Assembly: GCF_000515235.1 (NCBI RefSeq)
Contig: NZ_KI911558.1
Coordinates: 1,133,918 to 1,197,917 of the forward strand
DNA: 64,000 nt
Reading direction: 5' to 3'
Origin: Synechococcus sp. CC9616
GTDB taxonomy: Bacteria > Cyanobacteriota > Cyanobacteriia > PCC-6307 > Cyanobiaceae
The notes under the pieces are model-generated. The model saw only the letters and a list, made by a program, of their open reading frames with translations, ran no database searches and had not been told where the DNA came from. The translations under genes and the position numbers were made by a program. Of this stretch, positions 47,880 to 63,878 are shown piece by piece (position 1 is the first letter of the stretch; every line of letters begins with the position of its first letter).

Positions 47880-47904
47880 AAAAAAGCCCCAGACAAGCTG
47901 GGGC
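47880..47904 (-). terminator. Rho-independent terminator of the BI-1 gene
   Basis: On the minus strand a 7-bp perfect stem GCCCCAG/CTGGGGC with loop CTTGT is followed by six T. It lies 34 bases beyond the stop of the gene ending at 47938. Confidence 0.9.
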
Positions 47905-57404: not shown

Positions 57405-58889
57405 TCAGCTTGATCGGCGGCTGATCAGCCCCTGAATCAGACAAACACCGAACAGCACCCGCAAGGGCAAATCCAGCCAGCGCACGTAACCCGTCAGGGC
57501 CTTCCGGGTTTGGATGTCTGCTGCTGCAACGCCTTCCTCTCCTGAAGGCAACAGCTGATCGACACGGCCATCAGCATGAACAACGGCCGTTGGCCCCGTG
57601 TTCGCCACGCTGAACAGATCCCGTCCCGTTTCGATGGCCCTCAGCTGTGCCAGGGCCAGAAACTGACGTTGGAGCAGATCTGGATACGGGTCGAGGTTGG
57701 CGATGGAGAGCATCCATTGGCCACCCTCAGCAATCGCCTTGGCCATCGACCTGCCATCACTGATCTCGTAGCAGATCGCCACTGCAGCTGGATCCGAGAA
57801 GCCTGTCTGCAGACGTGACGCTGGGCCTGGCATCACGCCCCCAACAGCGGAAAGACCGCCCGCCAACCCCTGCGGCAGAGGAGGAAGGGCCTCCCCCAGG
57901 GGAACGAGTCGATGTTTATCGAGCAGGGGCTCGGGCTGATCGGCATCAGGGCTGATCAGCAGAAGACTGCTGCGCAACTGGCCGTCTTGACGACGGAATC
58001 CACCCGTCAGCAGAGGCAGGGGCTGATCCTCGGAGGCAAACGTCCAGCCCGACGGAAACGTGCCTTCAGGAGCAACCAAGGCCTGGGCATCGAAAGCTCG
58101 TGCCGTTTCCAGGGCGCGCTGAAGAGCCTGTGGCAGGCGCCGTTGCTGTTCAGAGGCGAACTTCTCCCTCGTTGGGATCGCAGGTTGCCAACCTGCCAGG
58201 GACAGATCGCCTCGGGAGACCGGCGGACGAAAGAGCGCAGCGGCACCGAGCAGATGGGCGAGCAGGAGCGCCATCAACCAGATCACAGACCAGCTCACAG
58301 TGCGACGCAGGGCAAACCGCTGACGAAACAGCTGATCAAGCCCCCAGCCAGCTGCCAGCAACAGCACCGCCAACCCGCCGCTGCCGATCCAGCGACTGAG
58401 GCCTGCCAACGCTGGATCCAACGGCAGGACGCTCCCGCCGACGCCGATCCAGAAGAGGGGCCCGCCAGCCAGCCCCACTTCGATGAGCCCCCAGATCAAC
58501 GCCAGGATGAGCATCGACATCCCCGACAGCTCTTCTCTGCTGCCCGGTTGAGACGCCACCAGCCAGCGAGCTGCGTTTGACCAGATGGCCAGCAGAACCG
58601 CTGCCGCCAATCCACAGACCAGCCAGATCAGAATCGCGATGGGAAGGCTGAGCAGGGCAGACACGCCCATCCAGGTGAGGGGATGGAGCGCCAGCAGCCA
58701 GCGATGGCTCAGCAACACAGCCAGCAACCCCCAGATCGCTGCAAGGCGAGGACGATCGGCGATCCTCCACAGCAGCGCGAGGGCAGGGAGCATGGTCACG
58801 GGCCCAGCCGCTGCCGGGGAGAGACCCGCCAGCAATCCCCCTCCGATGGCCAGCCAGAGCGAGGCAGATCGGTGATCGCCCATGGTCAT
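57405..58889 (-). CDS. lnt: Apolipoprotein N-acyltransferase
   Basis: Adds the third acyl chain to lipoproteins in the inner membrane. About six N-terminal transmembrane helices precede a nitrilase-like domain with the triad Glu (VAPEGTFP), Lys (LLDKHRLVPLGE) and Cys (AICYEI); a final C-terminal helix closes the protein. It fits with the lipoproteins HtrA and RlpA in this window. ATG 58889 is chosen from three clustered start codons. Confidence 0.93.
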   Translation of the reverse strand: MTMGDHRSASLWLAIGGGLLAGLSPAAAGPVTMLPALALLWRIADRPRLAAIWGLLAVLLSHRWLLALHPLTWMGVSALLSLPIAILIWLVCGLAAAVLLAIWSNAARWLVASQPGSREELSGMSMLILALIWGLIEVGLAGGPLFWIGVGGSVLPLDPALAGLSRWIGSGGLAVLLLAAGWGLDQLFRQRFALRRTVSWSVIWLMALLLAHLLGAAALFRPPVSRGDLSLAGWQPAIPTREKFASEQQRRLPQALQRALETARAFDAQALVAPEGTFPSGWTFASEDQPLPLLTGGFRRQDGQLRSSLLLISPDADQPEPLLDKHRLVPLGEALPPLPQGLAGGLSAVGGVMPGPASRLQTGFSDPAAVAICYEISDGRSMAKAIAEGGQWMLSIANLDPYPDLLQRQFLALAQLRAIETGRDLFSVANTGPTAVVHADGRVDQLLPSGEEGVAAADIQTRKALTGYVRWLDLPLRVLFGVCLIQGLISRRSS

Positions 58890-58933
58890 CAATCCCCGCC
58901 AGGGTCATCCTGAAGCCAAGCCAACAGGTTCTA

Positions 58934-59266
58934 ATGGACGCCGGCAATCCTCTTCAGCAACTGCTGCTCCGCGGCCTTGGGACCACCACTCTGGTCGCAG
59001 AGCGCCTCAGGGGTGTGTCCCAGCAATGGGTGAGCAGCGGCCGACTAGATCCCAATCAAGCTTCCGCCCTGGTTGAAGACGTGCTCAAGGCCCTGCGAGG
59101 GGAAACCCCTGAGCTCGAAGAGCAGATGGAGAAAAACCTCGAGCGCAACCGCGATCACTTTCTCGAAGACATCGGAGTGGCCAGCCAGAAGGAGGTCGAT
59201 GAACTGCGTGGTCGCATCGATCGGCTCGAGCAGCAGCTCAGGAAGTCAGAATCACGCGAGAACTGA
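58934..59266 (+). CDS. Phasin-like helical protein, 110 aa
   Basis: The amphipathic N-terminal helix (LQQLLLRGLGTTTLVAERLR), a middle acidic helix and the closing coiled coil (EVDELRGRIDRLEQQLRKSE) match the layout of cyanobacterial phasin-like/DUF proteins. A polyhydroxyalkanoate or membrane-surface role is only an analogy. It is divergent from lnt and 8 bases before the FKBP gene. Confidence 0.8.
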   Translation: MDAGNPLQQLLLRGLGTTTLVAERLRGVSQQWVSSGRLDPNQASALVEDVLKALRGETPELEEQMEKNLERNRDHFLEDIGVASQKEVDELRGRIDRLEQQLRKSESREN

Positions 59267-59274
59267 ACTTCAAC

Positions 59275-59925
59275 GTGCGGGACATCTTGATCAGCTCAAC
59301 CGTCTGCGTGCTCTGCCTCCTGCTGGCGCTGGTTAGCCAACTGATCTCGCCTTCCACCGTGGTTGCTTCCACAGTGGTGGCTTCCACAGTGACTGCCTCC
59401 ACCACGACAGCTCCGGTTCAGGCAGCCGTGATCCAGCCAGAGCCCCCTCAGCAAGCAGGCCGGATCGAACTGGATCCCGATGACCCCAACCCAACCTTGT
59501 TCGCAATGGCTCCCGACAACACCACTCCCGACAACAACAACACCGCCGATGCATCCGCCCTTGGAGGACCTCTGGATGCCCCCGATACAACGCTGACGGC
59601 CAGCGGCCTCAGCATCACCGAGTTGGAAGTTGGTGATGGCGACGTTGCCAGTTCAGGCCAGACCGTGGTGGTCAATTACCGCGGAACACTGGAAAACGGT
59701 AAAGAATTCGACAGCAGCTACGGCCGCGGCCCCTTCAGCTTCCCGCTGGGTGCTGGTCGCGTGATCAAAGGCTGGGATGAAGGGGTGGCTGGGATGAAAG
59801 TTGGCGGGAAACGCCGGCTGGTGATTCCCCCAGACCTGGCCTATGGCAGCCGTGGGGCCGGTGGTGTGATTCCACCAAATGCCACTCTCATTTTCGAGGT
59901 GGAACTTCTCGACATCCGTAAATGA
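59275..59925 (+). CDS. FKBP-type peptidyl-prolyl cis-trans isomerase, exported
   Basis: A hydrophobic N-terminus (VCVLCLLLALVSQLIS) directs export; a Thr/Val/Ser linker with three 5-residue repeats (TVVAS, TVVAS, TVTAS) and an Asp/Asn-rich stretch follow. The FKBP domain (residues 110-216) has VVVNYRGTLENGKEFDSSYG, GRVIKGWDEGVAGMKVGGKR and PPDLAYGSRGAGGVIPPNAT. It acts in the lumen or periplasm. The start is GTG at 59275. It ends 35 bases before sodN. Confidence 0.95.
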   Translation: MRDILISSTVCVLCLLLALVSQLISPSTVVASTVVASTVTASTTTAPVQAAVIQPEPPQQAGRIELDPDDPNPTLFAMAPDNTTPDNNNTADASALGGPLDAPDTTLTASGLSITELEVGDGDVASSGQTVVVNYRGTLENGKEFDSSYGRGPFSFPLGAGRVIKGWDEGVAGMKVGGKRRLVIPPDLAYGSRGAGGVIPPNATLIFEVELLDIRK

Positions 59926-59960
59926 TCGGCAGTTAGGCTCTCGGCTAGCCACCTGTTCCG

Positions 59961-60434
59961 ATGCTGCGTTCGGCCCTTTCCGCCATCGTCCGCGCCCTCC
60001 CTGCATCCGTCGTTCATGCCCATTGCGACGGACCCTGCGGCGTTTATGACCCAGCCTCCGCCCGTGTGGCGGCTGAAGCTGTTCTGGCGATGACGAAGAA
60101 GCTCAAATCCCTTGAAGCCCCTGCCAATGGCGATGCCGCTGCCATGGCTGCCTACAACAACACCTTCTCTCGCTTCGTCGCGATCAAGGAAGATCAGGCC
60201 AAGGAAACCAAGAAGGAACTCCTGATTCTCTGGACGGACTATTTCAAGCCCGACCATCTGGCGACCTTCCCCGACCTCCACGACACCTTCTGGAAAGCCA
60301 CCAAGCTTTGCAGTGCCTGCAAAGTCCACATCGACCAGGGCAAGGCTGAGGAACTGATGGCTGCTGTGGAAAAGATCCACAACATGTTCTGGCAGTCCAA
60401 GGGCCGCAGTGATGCCTGGGTCACCGCCTCCTGA
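59961..60434 (+). CDS. sodN: Nickel superoxide dismutase
   Basis: A 157-residue precursor. A 20-residue propeptide is followed by the nickel hook HCDGPCGVYDP; after cleavage His1, Cys2 and Cys6 of the mature protein bind Ni. The rest is the four-helix bundle (AAEAVLAMTKKLKSL, TFPDLHDTFWKATKLCSACK). NiSOD replaces iron SOD in most marine picocyanobacteria, sparing iron. The cleavage protease gene sodX follows, and an 11-bp hairpin lies 58 bases past the stop. Confidence 0.98.
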   Translation: MLRSALSAIVRALPASVVHAHCDGPCGVYDPASARVAAEAVLAMTKKLKSLEAPANGDAAAMAAYNNTFSRFVAIKEDQAKETKKELLILWTDYFKPDHLATFPDLHDTFWKATKLCSACKVHIDQGKAEELMAAVEKIHNMFWQSKGRSDAWVTAS

Positions 60435-60469
60435 ATCATTCAGCACCGCCTGCAGCCAGCCTCAGGGAA

Positions 60470-60784
60470 CTGCTGCTGCTCGCCTGCCGTCGCCGTCGAC
60501 ACCTTCGTGTCGACGGCTTTTCAATGGCGCCAACCTTGATGCCCGGGGATCGGGTGCTGATTCGACTGTTATCGGACGATGCCCCGCTGCCAACGATCGA
60601 TTCGCTTGTTGTGGCCTGGCATCCCAATAAGGCCGAGACGAAAATGATCAAGCGGTTGACCAGCTGCAATCAGGGTCGCCTACTCCTGCACGGAGACAAC
60701 CCGTCGGAAAGCAGCGACAGCCGCCAGTTCGGTGCTCTGGAGCGCCGTCACCTCATCGGTGTCGTCACATCCATTGTTCGCTGA
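60470..60784 (+). CDS. sodX: NiSOD maturation protease SodX (S26 type), non-canonical start
   Basis: SodX trims the NiSOD propeptide. The S26 signal-peptidase signature is RVDGFSMAPTLMPGD with nucleophile Ser, and the general-base Lys lies in KMIKRLTS. The only ATG (60524) codes for the Met directly after the catalytic Ser, so starting there would remove it. The frame is open back to a TGA at 60410, with no ATG, GTG or TTG; CTG codons at 60416, 60431, 60470, 60473 and 60476 are the only near-starts. I list CTG 60470 as a guess. The region also forms a terminator-like hairpin. Confidence 0.85.
   Translation: MLLLACRRRRHLRVDGFSMAPTLMPGDRVLIRLLSDDAPLPTIDSLVVAWHPNKAETKMIKRLTSCNQGRLLLHGDNPSESSDSRQFGALERRHLIGVVTSIVR
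60492..60521 (+). terminator. Terminator-like hairpin inside the 5' part of sodX
   Basis: GCCGTCGACAC and GTGTCGACGGC form a perfect 11-bp stem with a CTTC tetraloop, followed at once by TTTT. It sits 58 bases after the sodN stop codon and ends at the catalytic Ser codon of sodX. It may terminate most sodN transcripts, letting a minority read into sodX, or protect the sodN 3' end. Confidence 0.75.
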
Positions 60785-60816
60785 TGACCTGTTCGCTGAG
60801 CACCTGTTGCAGCCCG

Positions 60817-61485
60817 TCAGAACACAACGGCTGAGGTTTTCTGCAGCCAGATCATCCCCGTCACGATGGACAGCCCCCCTGTGACGCCAACCAGGACTGG
60901 AAGACAACGCGCACCGGTGCGCTGGGTCAGCATTGACAAGGCTGCCGCCACCAGGAGCATGGCTGCAATCGAGCCGCCCAAATAGGCGAACAGGTAGATC
61001 ACAGCACCCAATGGGGGCAGCGCCAGGGCCGGAATCACAGCCAGTACATGGCTGGCACCGGCCAGGCCATGCAGGAGCCCCAGGCCGGAAGCGGCATGGG
61101 CATGGCGTCTGTGATTGCTCTGACCGCGAACGTGCAGGTGGAGATGGCGGTGTTGGCGCTCCCCGTCGTGATGATGCTCATGCGTGTGCAGCTCCAGTCC
61201 AAAGGCTGTGCGGATCGCAAGGGTGCCAACCACCAGCAACGACACACCCACAAACCATTCAGCCCAGGCCGACATGGCCTCCAGATGGGCCAGATCCTTG
61301 ATCAGCAGTGTCATCAAGGCCAGCAACACCACGCCCGCTGCATGACCAACCCCCCAGGCCAAACCCGATCGCAGCGCCTGCACCGGACGGTTCAAGGACA
61401 TCGGGGCCATGGCCACCAGGTGATCGGCTCCACCGACGACATGCAGCGCTCCGGCGGCAAACCCCGTCAACAGACTGATCAGCAT
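60817..61485 (-). CDS. sodT: Putative nickel transporter SodT (UreH/NicO-like)
   Basis: A 222-residue protein with about six transmembrane helices. The metal-site motif HVVGGADHLVAMAP (H-x5-DH type) lies in helix 1, and a second GLLHGLAGASHVLA repeats it. A His-rich cytosolic loop (HTHEHHHDGERQHRHLHLHV) fits Ni binding. In marine picocyanobacteria such genes beside sodN-sodX are proposed to supply nickel to NiSOD. It is convergent with sodX. Confidence 0.88.
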   Translation of the reverse strand: MLISLLTGFAAGALHVVGGADHLVAMAPMSLNRPVQALRSGLAWGVGHAAGVVLLALMTLLIKDLAHLEAMSAWAEWFVGVSLLVVGTLAIRTAFGLELHTHEHHHDGERQHRHLHLHVRGQSNHRRHAHAASGLGLLHGLAGASHVLAVIPALALPPLGAVIYLFAYLGGSIAAMLLVAAALSMLTQRTGARCLPVLVGVTGGLSIVTGMIWLQKTSAVVF

Positions 61486-61528
61486 CGAGCTTCTTCGCCA
61501 ACCATCAATTGTACAGGAGCGCTGAGGC

Positions 61529-62413
61529 TCAACCGTCGATCAGTGTTCGAAGCCCCGCCTCGACATCCTGCTGACGCATGAGCGCTTCTCCCACCAGAAC
61601 CGCCTTGGCCCCGGCCGACTGAACACGATCCAGATCGTTGCGCGTGAACAGACCAGATTCACTCACCAGCAGGGTGTCGGACTGCTTGAGCTGCTCTCCA
61701 AAGCGCTGCATCAAGCGCTCCGTAGTGGCGAGGTCGGTCTCAAAGCTGGCGAGATCACGATTGTTGATTCCGATCAGGGGAAATCCACCCAGCTGCAGCA
61801 CGCGCTCCAGCTCCTCGTCGTCGTGAACCTCCACAAGAACGTCGAGGCTGAGCGCTTTGGCTGCCTTACGCAGGTAATTCAGATCCTGGTCGGTGAGGAT
61901 TGCAGCGATCAGCAAGACGGCATCCGCGCCTGCTGCCCGAGCCTGATAAAGCTGATAGGGACTGAGGATGAACTCCTTGCAGAGCAGGGGGAGATCAACG
62001 GCCTGTCGCACATCCACCAGAACCTCAAAACCACCCTGGAAGAACGTCTTATCGGTCAGCACCGACAGGCAGCTGGCGCCGCCACTGGCGTAGGCGCGGG
62101 CAATCGTTACAGGGTCGAAGTCCTCACGGATCACACCTTTGCTGGGACTGGCTTTTTTGACCTCAGCGATCACAGCCGGCTTCCGCGTCGATGACCGGAG
62201 TGCCGCGATGAAATCTCGCGTTGGGGGCAGGTCCTGAATTTGTGATCTCAGCTTTTCAAGGGGAACCTTCTGACGCGCCACGTCGATTTCACGGTCCTTC
62301 TCCCAGACGATTTCCTCGAGGATGTGCCGAGGCTTCTCGTCATCGTGGGGAACGGCATATTCGAGATAGGCAACACGCACCTTGGGATTGGGGGGACGGC
62401 GACGGATCTCCAT
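61529..62413 (-). CDS. trpC: Indole-3-glycerol phosphate synthase
   Basis: Tryptophan pathway enzyme with a TIM barrel. Key blocks: [38 protein letters not shown] (catalytic Lys), [39 protein letters not shown] and [16 protein letters not shown] 62413 ([14 protein letters not shown]) is the family start; an upstream extension is rejected. It lies 22 bases after lpdA. Confidence 0.97.
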
Positions 62414-62435
62414 GCTCAGATTCCTTAAAAACGAC

Positions 62436-63878
62436 TCAGCCGACGAGCTGGCCGGCGGCCTGCTTGTAGGCAACCTCCACCACTTCACTCAGGGTGGGGT
62501 GGGTGTGCACTTCCGTTGACAGCTGGCGCACGCTCTGGCGTCGTGCCACGGCATTGGCCACCTCCTGGATCAGATCGGCGGCATGGAGGCCATAGATATG
62601 AGCTCCAAGGACTTCACCCGATGATTTGTTGAACAGAAGCTTCATCAAACCATCGCTCTCCAGCTCAGCGAGTGCTTTGGAATTGGCCTTGAAATAGCTG
62701 CGCACAGCACCCAGCTGAAAACCCTGCTGTTCGGCCATCTGCTTGGCATCCACTTCGGTGAGTCCCACCGAGCTGATCTCGGGATGGGTGAAGGTGGCTG
62801 CGGGAATGCTGCGGTAATCAATCTGCCTGTCGTGGCCAAGAATGTTGTCGACAGCCACGGTGCCCTGGGCCGCTGCTGTGTGGGCCAACATCAGTTTTCC
62901 AGTGACGTCGCCAACGGCCCAGAGATGGGGGACGGGCTGACCGTTCAGCAACACCCGCATCGAGTCGTCGATGGGAACAAATCCGCGGTTGGTCTCGATC
63001 TGAAGCGCTTCAAGGTTCAGACCCTTGCTGCTGGGGACGCGTCCCGTGGCAACGAGAACAGCATCGACCTCCAAGGTCTCCACCAGCTCACGACTGTCGA
63101 AATCGGCCAGCTCAATCTGCACAGGACAGCCCGGGGTGACCTTGCGGGCGAGCACACCGGATCGGGCATCAATATCGCGACTGTCAATCAGATTCCGTCC
63201 GGCAATCTTGGCGATATCGGGATCAAAGGTCGGCATCACCCGATCCAGGGCTTCGATCATCGTCACTTCGCAGCCGAGCGCTGTGTAGACATCGGCGAAT
63301 TCCAGGCCGATGTAACCACTGCCGATGATGGCAATCCAGCGGGGCAACCACTCCAGGTTGATGGCTTCATCACTGGTGAACACCGTGCGGCCATCCGTCT
63401 CGATGCCGGGAGGGACGAAAGGGTCGGAGCCTGTGGCAAGGATCACGTCCTTTGCGCTCAGAACGCGGTCCACACCGTTCGGCTCGCGCAGACCCACCTT
63501 CTGTTCACCTTCCAGGCGTCCATGGCCACGGAGGATCGTGACACCGGCCCGTTCGAGGGCCTTCGTGAGGTTTGTGCGAATCGCCTGAACCAGCTGGTTG
63601 GCATGGTCAGCAATCTTTTGGCGTTCGAAGCGCACCGGGGCGGCATGAATGCCAAAACTGGCGAGATGCTTGTCGTCGGCCAGTTCACGCACCTTGCCGC
63701 TGGCCGCCAGCAGGGCCTTAGACGGCACGCAGCCTCGGTTCACACAGGTTCCGCCCATGTCCCGCGATTCGATGATCGCGGTCTTCAGACCGTGCTCTGC
63801 CGCGTGTTTCGCTGCGTCAAAACCGCCGTAACCGGCACCAATGATGATGACGTCGAAATCGAAACTGGCGTCGCTCAC
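62436..63878 (-). CDS. lpdA: Dihydrolipoamide dehydrogenase
   Basis: E3 subunit of pyruvate dehydrogenase (and glycine cleavage). The FAD site is [20 protein letters not shown], the redox disulfide [17 protein letters not shown], the NAD site [17 protein letters not shown], and the C-terminal active-site His-Glu pair [13 protein letters not shown]. The GTG start at 63878 overlaps the upstream methyltransferase stop (GTGA). Confidence 0.97.

Follow-up and report, generated by a model that had tools for sequence, protein, structure and literature searches.

Dar and Sorek reported for E. coli that 26 of 34 upstream-stabilised gene pairs end at a hairpin without a U-tract, and that 17 of these 26 hairpins lie inside the next gene, as far as the accessible part of the paper goes (PMC5927463). 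For cyanobacteria, the available text of PMC13289151 states that 22% of the transcription units of S. elongatus end with intrinsic-terminator features, and that in a cyanobacterium intrinsic termination works, its strength follows the U-tract, and Rho is absent. In Streptomyces, the sodN-sodX intergenic region is conserved and holds a 19-bp stretch that recurs downstream of sodF, according to the portion of PMC3919588 at hand. I found no description of the sodN-sodX element reported below in the literature, which was searched by title and abstract with subscription journals and supplements mostly outside the search.

The window analysed here is a 64,000-nucleotide stretch of the Synechococcus sp. 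CC9616 genome. Photosystem II and phycobilisome families score above the cut-off in this genome, as befits a cyanobacterium, and its relatives studied here probably belong to the marine Synechococcus/Prochlorococcus family. Its sodN gene for nickel superoxide dismutase (NiSOD) lies at 59961..60434 on the plus strand, with the stop codon TGA at 60432-60434, and the product matches TIGR02753 with 226 bits, above the cut-off, and PF09055 with 170 bits. The sodX gene for the NiSOD maturation protease follows on the same strand at 60461..60784 (TIGR02754, 85.5 bits, above the cut-off), and its frame is open from 60413. In 59275-59960, a gene for an FKBP-type isomerase (PF00254) ends 35 nt 5′ of the sodN start. 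The sequence scan detected no promoter-like site in 58500-62500, and sodN may share a transcript with this upstream gene. On the other side, sodX is adjoined by a convergent gene (60817-61485, minus strand) for a His-rich membrane-like protein. This product matched no Pfam family at E 0.001 and no NCBIfam family at 1e-10; as a guess, it might be a nickel transporter. Over 59300-61500, Rfam gave a single match with a score under its gathering score. A repeat element was ruled out, the 105-nt hairpin stretch matching the genome once.

The hairpin of CC9616, named T2 here, consists of a left arm at 60492-60502 (GCCGTCGACAC), a CTTC tetraloop at 60503-60506 (CTGC in the relative G021), and a right arm at 60507-60517 (GTGTCGACGGC), all on the plus strand. 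It is followed by TTTT at 60518-60521, formed by a TTT Phe codon and the first base of the next Ser codon. The preliminary description of an 11-bp perfect stem, a tetraloop, and TTTT 3′ of the sodN stop codon proved exact; 8 of the pairs are G-C, and 57 nt separate the stop codon from the stem. The folding energy is -21.9 kcal/mol (z -5.5; equalled by 0 of 200 dinucleotide shuffles), and the hairpin is kept in a 149-nt fold. Both features of an intrinsic terminator are present, namely a stable G+C-rich stem-loop and a U-tract directly 3′ of the stem (TTTTCAAT, 5 T in 8). The terminator score, which is of the d'Aubenton-Carafa type and was calculated with my own simplified energy code, is 16.4. 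Scores above 0 were obtained at 2 sites when both strands of the 64-kb window were scanned, and T2 is one of them. The other (47886-47904, minus strand) scores 30.1 and follows an ORF at a distance of 33 nt; the window has few strong intrinsic terminators. A simple pattern scan of 58500-62500 gave 5 terminator-like sites, no excess over shuffled sequence (mean 3.4, sd 1.8). T2 is the sole plus-strand site among them, the other four being 5-bp stems. The label of attenuator, also given to the hairpin before, is unsupported.

Is this hairpin common in related genomes? I searched 300 genomes of the family and obtained a SodX match in 155. In the first set, 99 loci were examined, of which 96 could be used, counting CC9616; in each of these, sodN immediately precedes sodX. 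The other three were discarded: L133 has no detectable sodX, while L112 and L123 have no SMxP motif; when read separately, the latter two both carry T2. The later set consisted of 40 more matches, 18 of g79 and 22 of other genera. The later tests count 42 loci (20 of g79 and 22 others), and the g79 loci are not a blind test since two g79 members had already been seen. L032, aligned at the wrong serine, was left out, and three distant non-cyanobacterial relatives and L134-L136 from other families of the class were used for start codons only. Positions are counted from the Ser codon TCA, which together with the conserved ATG of the SMxP motif occupies 60521..60526 in CC9616. The Ser codon (60521-60523) is presumably the catalytic one, as in the signal peptidase family. 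In 43 of the 96 genomes, a U-tract terminator named T1 is located about 40 nt upstream of T2. The T1 class is defined by a score >10, with CC9616 and G021 set aside by hand because their hairpin sits at T2.

The family-wide register of T2 spans -32 to -1 before the Ser codon (60489..60520), with the loop at -18 to -15, and CC9616 forms 12 of the 14 possible pairs. In the 53 non-T1 genomes, CC9616 included, 528 of 742 register pairs are formed. When the arms were permuted between genomes, which ignores relatedness, 465.7 ± 8.7 pairs were formed (maximum 503 of 2000 permutations). Sliding the axis keeps relatedness: the true axis has a mean of 9.96 of 14 pairs, while 90 slid axes have at most 7.5. 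At least 12 pairs are formed in 20 of the 53 genomes, compared with at most 2 of 53 for slid axes, and ten genera of the first set reach this level. T1 genomes have a mean of 6.16 pairs at the same register; none of the 43 reaches 12, and one reaches 11. A search for compensatory changes across strains had been proposed, and pair changes on both sides were found. In a recount of the same data as 52 distinct rows, 71.3% of the cells are paired (31-52% when slid), the cells changed on both sides number 68 versus 38.2 ± 4.9 (a count reached in 0 of 500 shuffles), and the covariation score is 0.349 versus 0.238. On the other hand, the pairs changed on both sides (8 versus 8.3 in shuffled rows) and the further pair types (36 versus 32.4) do not stand out. 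In the later set, all 20 g79 loci reach 12 pairs (mean 13.15, best slid axis 8.95), with arms strongly unlike those of CC9616 in sequence. Among the other later loci, 12 pairs are formed in 6 of 22, and on slid axes in no more than 1 of 22 (mean 8.45, best slid axis 6.82). Pooled into 35 distinct rows, the later loci form 358 of 490 pairs versus 320.4 ± 5.9. T2 was absent from all 10 loci of g40 that were read. Across 138 loci checked, TTTT follows T2 in CC9616, G021, and G026 only. G026 has kept the right arm and TTTT, but one T.T mismatch weakens its stem (score -5.1). Termination, the function claimed for the hairpin, is probably not the general function of T2, since the homologous hairpins of the other relatives lack TTTT.

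T1 has a stem of about 13 bp of the GCAGCAGCAGGTC / GACCTGTTGCTGC type followed by T6 or more. Its 3′ end is 42-45 nt upstream of the Ser codon, and the residues it encodes are AAAGLxDLLLLF-like. Its scores range from 13.6 to 54.6, CC9616 T2 being at the weak end of this range, and in no genome do more than 1 of 300 synonymous recodings reach them. Sliding the axis gives a clear result, with 12.51 pairs at the true axis and no more than 7.91 elsewhere. The arms hardly vary: the 33 distinct rows form 409 of 429 pairs, a total that the best of 2000 permutations also attains (mean 403.6). Covariation therefore contributes little for T1. Judged by its sequence, T1 has the textbook form of an intrinsic terminator and stands between sodN and sodX. 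No terminator was found at the homologous place in CC9616 (60449..60479, plus strand, -72 to -42 before the Ser codon). Six genomes without T1 (L101, L107, L114, L116, L118, and L122) have another hairpin with a U-rich stretch in the leucine-rich segment, equalled by 0 to 5 of 300 synonymous recodings; these may be independent T1-like elements. Loss of the arms with SodX kept had been named as evidence against the proposed role of the hairpin. Such a loss was encountered in the T1 clade, but the stronger terminator lies about 40 nt upstream there; 25 of the 96 genomes lack T1 and also fall short of 11 pairs at T2.

The order of events may be read from a quick tree, which has SH-aLRT support only and a midpoint root and serves for orientation only. 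L086, with a 14-bp T2, the same CTTC loop, and no U-tract, adjoins the group of CC9616, G021, G026, and the T1 clade (95). CC9616 and G021 branch outside the T1 clade (87), while G026 is inside it with weak support. This branching suggests that T2 is older than both the U-tract form and T1, that the CC9616 lineage gained a U-tract via the Phe codon, and that the sister clade swapped T2 for T1. One element is present where the other is missing, which suggests a common task, the limitation of sodX relative to sodN. I consider it rather probable that the hairpin is a dual-use element, the N-terminal codons of SodX also encoding an RNA 3′-end structure behind sodN. It would form or shield the 3′ terminus of a sodN mRNA that is short and stable. 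The sodN mRNA would be held in excess over sodX, leaving little protease message and protein. The U-less T2, presumably the older form, would block 3′-5′ exonucleases. In the CC9616 lineage, the TTT Phe codon would add a short U-tract to make a weak, leaky intrinsic terminator; leakage is expected of a terminator with 4 U, because weaker U-tracts are read through more in S. elongatus. That the U-tract has only 4 U was counted against the proposal. In the sister clade, the stronger terminator T1 in the leucine-rich segment would replace T2. In some genomes including CC9616, a non-canonical start close to the sodN stop codon probably reduces SodX output still more.

Counted from the Ser codon, the hairpin spans codons -10 to -2. 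The first in-frame ATG of CC9616 sodX (60524) is 3′ of that codon. Thus, the stem is coding solely because translation has to begin farther 5′, with a codon other than ATG, GTG, or TTG. Across the 53 genomes lacking T1, codon position 2 is far less variable than position 3 at most codons from -20 on, and this contrast is not seen upstream of codon -21. At codon -17, which is Leu in 46 of 53, the entropies are 0 (position 2) and 1.88 (position 3). Protein constraint on SodX is therefore visible from about codon -20, and the codon-position entropies indicate that SodX is translated through the hairpin stretch, in agreement with the nesting in sodX given by the preliminary description. No ATG, GTG, or TTG precedes the Ser codon in the open sodX frame of 15 of the 96 genomes: CC9616 (60413-60526), L009, L018, L090, L094, L095, L105, L106, L113, L119, L124, L126, L129, L130, and L131. 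These frames are open and conserved nonetheless. In 26 of 96 genomes, all three codons are missing beyond position -4, counted from the sodN stop codon. A conserved near-cognate start, ATT or ATC at codon -25, seemed promising for the T1 clade and L084. However, from the sodN stop to codon -20, neither a canonical codon nor ATT, ATC, ATA, or CTG was found in 15 of 96 genomes.

It seems unlikely, though conceivable, that the stem, stable and early in the sodX coding region, acts on translation; it would slow or gate ribosomes re-initiating behind sodN on a non-AUG codon, and so lower SodX directly. The frames without a canonical start among the 96 whole open frames speak for this reading, as does the absence of TTTT outside CC9616, G021, and G026. 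It is also favoured by the sodX frame, which is open back to the sodN stop codon. In non-T1 genomes, between that stop and codon -20, stop codons make up 2 of 462 codons in the sodX frame versus 51 of 876 in the other frames; in T1 genomes the figures are 2 of 581 versus 19 of 1150. However, an action on translation leaves the U-tract terminator T1 of 43 genomes and the U-tract of CC9616, G021, and G026 unexplained. Canonical starts are enriched in the same stretch of non-T1 genomes, with 16 of 462 codons in the sodX frame (11 of 53 genomes) versus 9 of 876 in the others (p 0.003). This counts against the bolder start-codon reading given below, and some genomes therefore probably start ordinarily. 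The gap between sodN and the sodX frame is 0, 1, or 2 modulo 3 in 5, 50, and 41 of the 96 genomes. A fixed programmed frameshift from sodN to sodX was rejected as a general mechanism because the relative frame takes all three values. For CC9616 sodX, the best guess is that ribosomes leaving sodN re-initiate on a non-AUG codon. PMC4648390, in the part available, concerns reinitiation in a eukaryotic system, and no support is drawn from it. As a tentative extension with the odds against it, CC9616 and at least part of the family may have no ordinary sodX start at all, ribosomes re-entering at a non-AUG codon near the sodN stop in a manner coupled to the hairpin or terminator. If this were true, ribosomes finishing sodN would re-enter the sodX frame in whichever frame is present. 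One short stretch would then serve as protein leader, as unconventional initiation region, and as conserved RNA element, which would jointly keep the protease far below its substrate. The usual start-codon rules fail to place the start of sodX.

Near-perfect stems of 12-14 bp without a U-tract occur in several genera. They would suit a processing site, for example for a double-strand ribonuclease, that separates the sodN and sodX messages. The U-tract terminators of the T1 clade, however, point to end formation rather than cutting, and I regard processing as quite improbable.

The dual use of the codons was assessed with 300 synonymous versions of each sequence with the protein unchanged, a locus passing when 15 or fewer equal it. 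No recoding reaches the terminator score of CC9616 (16.4) or G021 (16.9), and the stem energy is reached by 2 of 300 in CC9616 and 12 of 300 in G021. T2 passes in 24 of the 53 non-T1 genomes, in none of the 43 T1 genomes, and in 28 of the 42 later loci (20 of 20 in g79, 8 of 22 in the others). The control windows are above the nominal 5%, with 39 of 317 and 28 of 258 in sodN and 11 of 159 and 14 of 126 in the sodX body; in that comparison the sodX N-terminus gives 25 of 53 and 43 of 43. Between CC9616 and G021 only, silent conservation in the stem (9 of 10 codons) exceeds that in the sodX body (35 of 63) at a marginal p of 0.037, and is not significant when sodN is added to the background (p 0.17). 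That the hairpin is a by-product of the protein, with RRHxRVDG codons self-complementary by chance, is very improbable and already disfavoured in light of these tests and of the pair changes on both sides, even though recoded CC9616 sequences average -11.3 kcal/mol and 12 of 300 recodings reach the stem energy in G021. As the comparison shows, the hairpin is under selection as RNA, judging from the covarying arms, the fixed register, and the synonymous choices favouring pairing. Together with the codon-position entropies, this bears out the claim of a double constraint on the arms, at the RNA and at the protein level; the preliminary description as a whole is partly supported. The junction offers a clean natural case of codons selected as RNA in an operon while the protein stays readable. 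The element has three forms, a U-less hairpin, a hairpin with a U-tract, and a relocated terminator, and it makes operon stoichiometry without Rho testable in cyanobacteria.

How does the element compare with known systems? CC9616 T2 shows features of both a terminator and a protective hairpin. Its structure is conserved beyond the protein constraint, as in a hairpin of the Dar-Sorek type. The lack of a U-tract that characterises that type is found in the relatives outside CC9616, G021, and G026, but CC9616 itself has TTTT. For the U-less T2, the protective hairpins of differentially decaying operons (malE-malF type) are a fit, as described in the accessible part of PMC5927463. Those hairpins, as presented there, belong to enterobacteria and have mapped 3′ ends, whereas the sodX hairpin belongs to cyanobacteria, concerns one junction, and is known from sequence alone. 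Unlike them, so far as that text describes them, it has pairs that differ from genus to genus, and in the CC9616 lineage it carries a U-tract. In Streptomyces, the conserved sequence is at the same junction but is intergenic and not a hairpin in sodX; the likeness is drawn from the description in the available portion of PMC3919588. Like the cyanobacterial intrinsic terminators in the available text of PMC13289151, the sodX hairpin is a stable stem followed by U. In contrast to those terminators, as they are given there, it is embedded in the coding part of the gene downstream, its U-tract in CC9616 is short, and most of its homologues are U-less.
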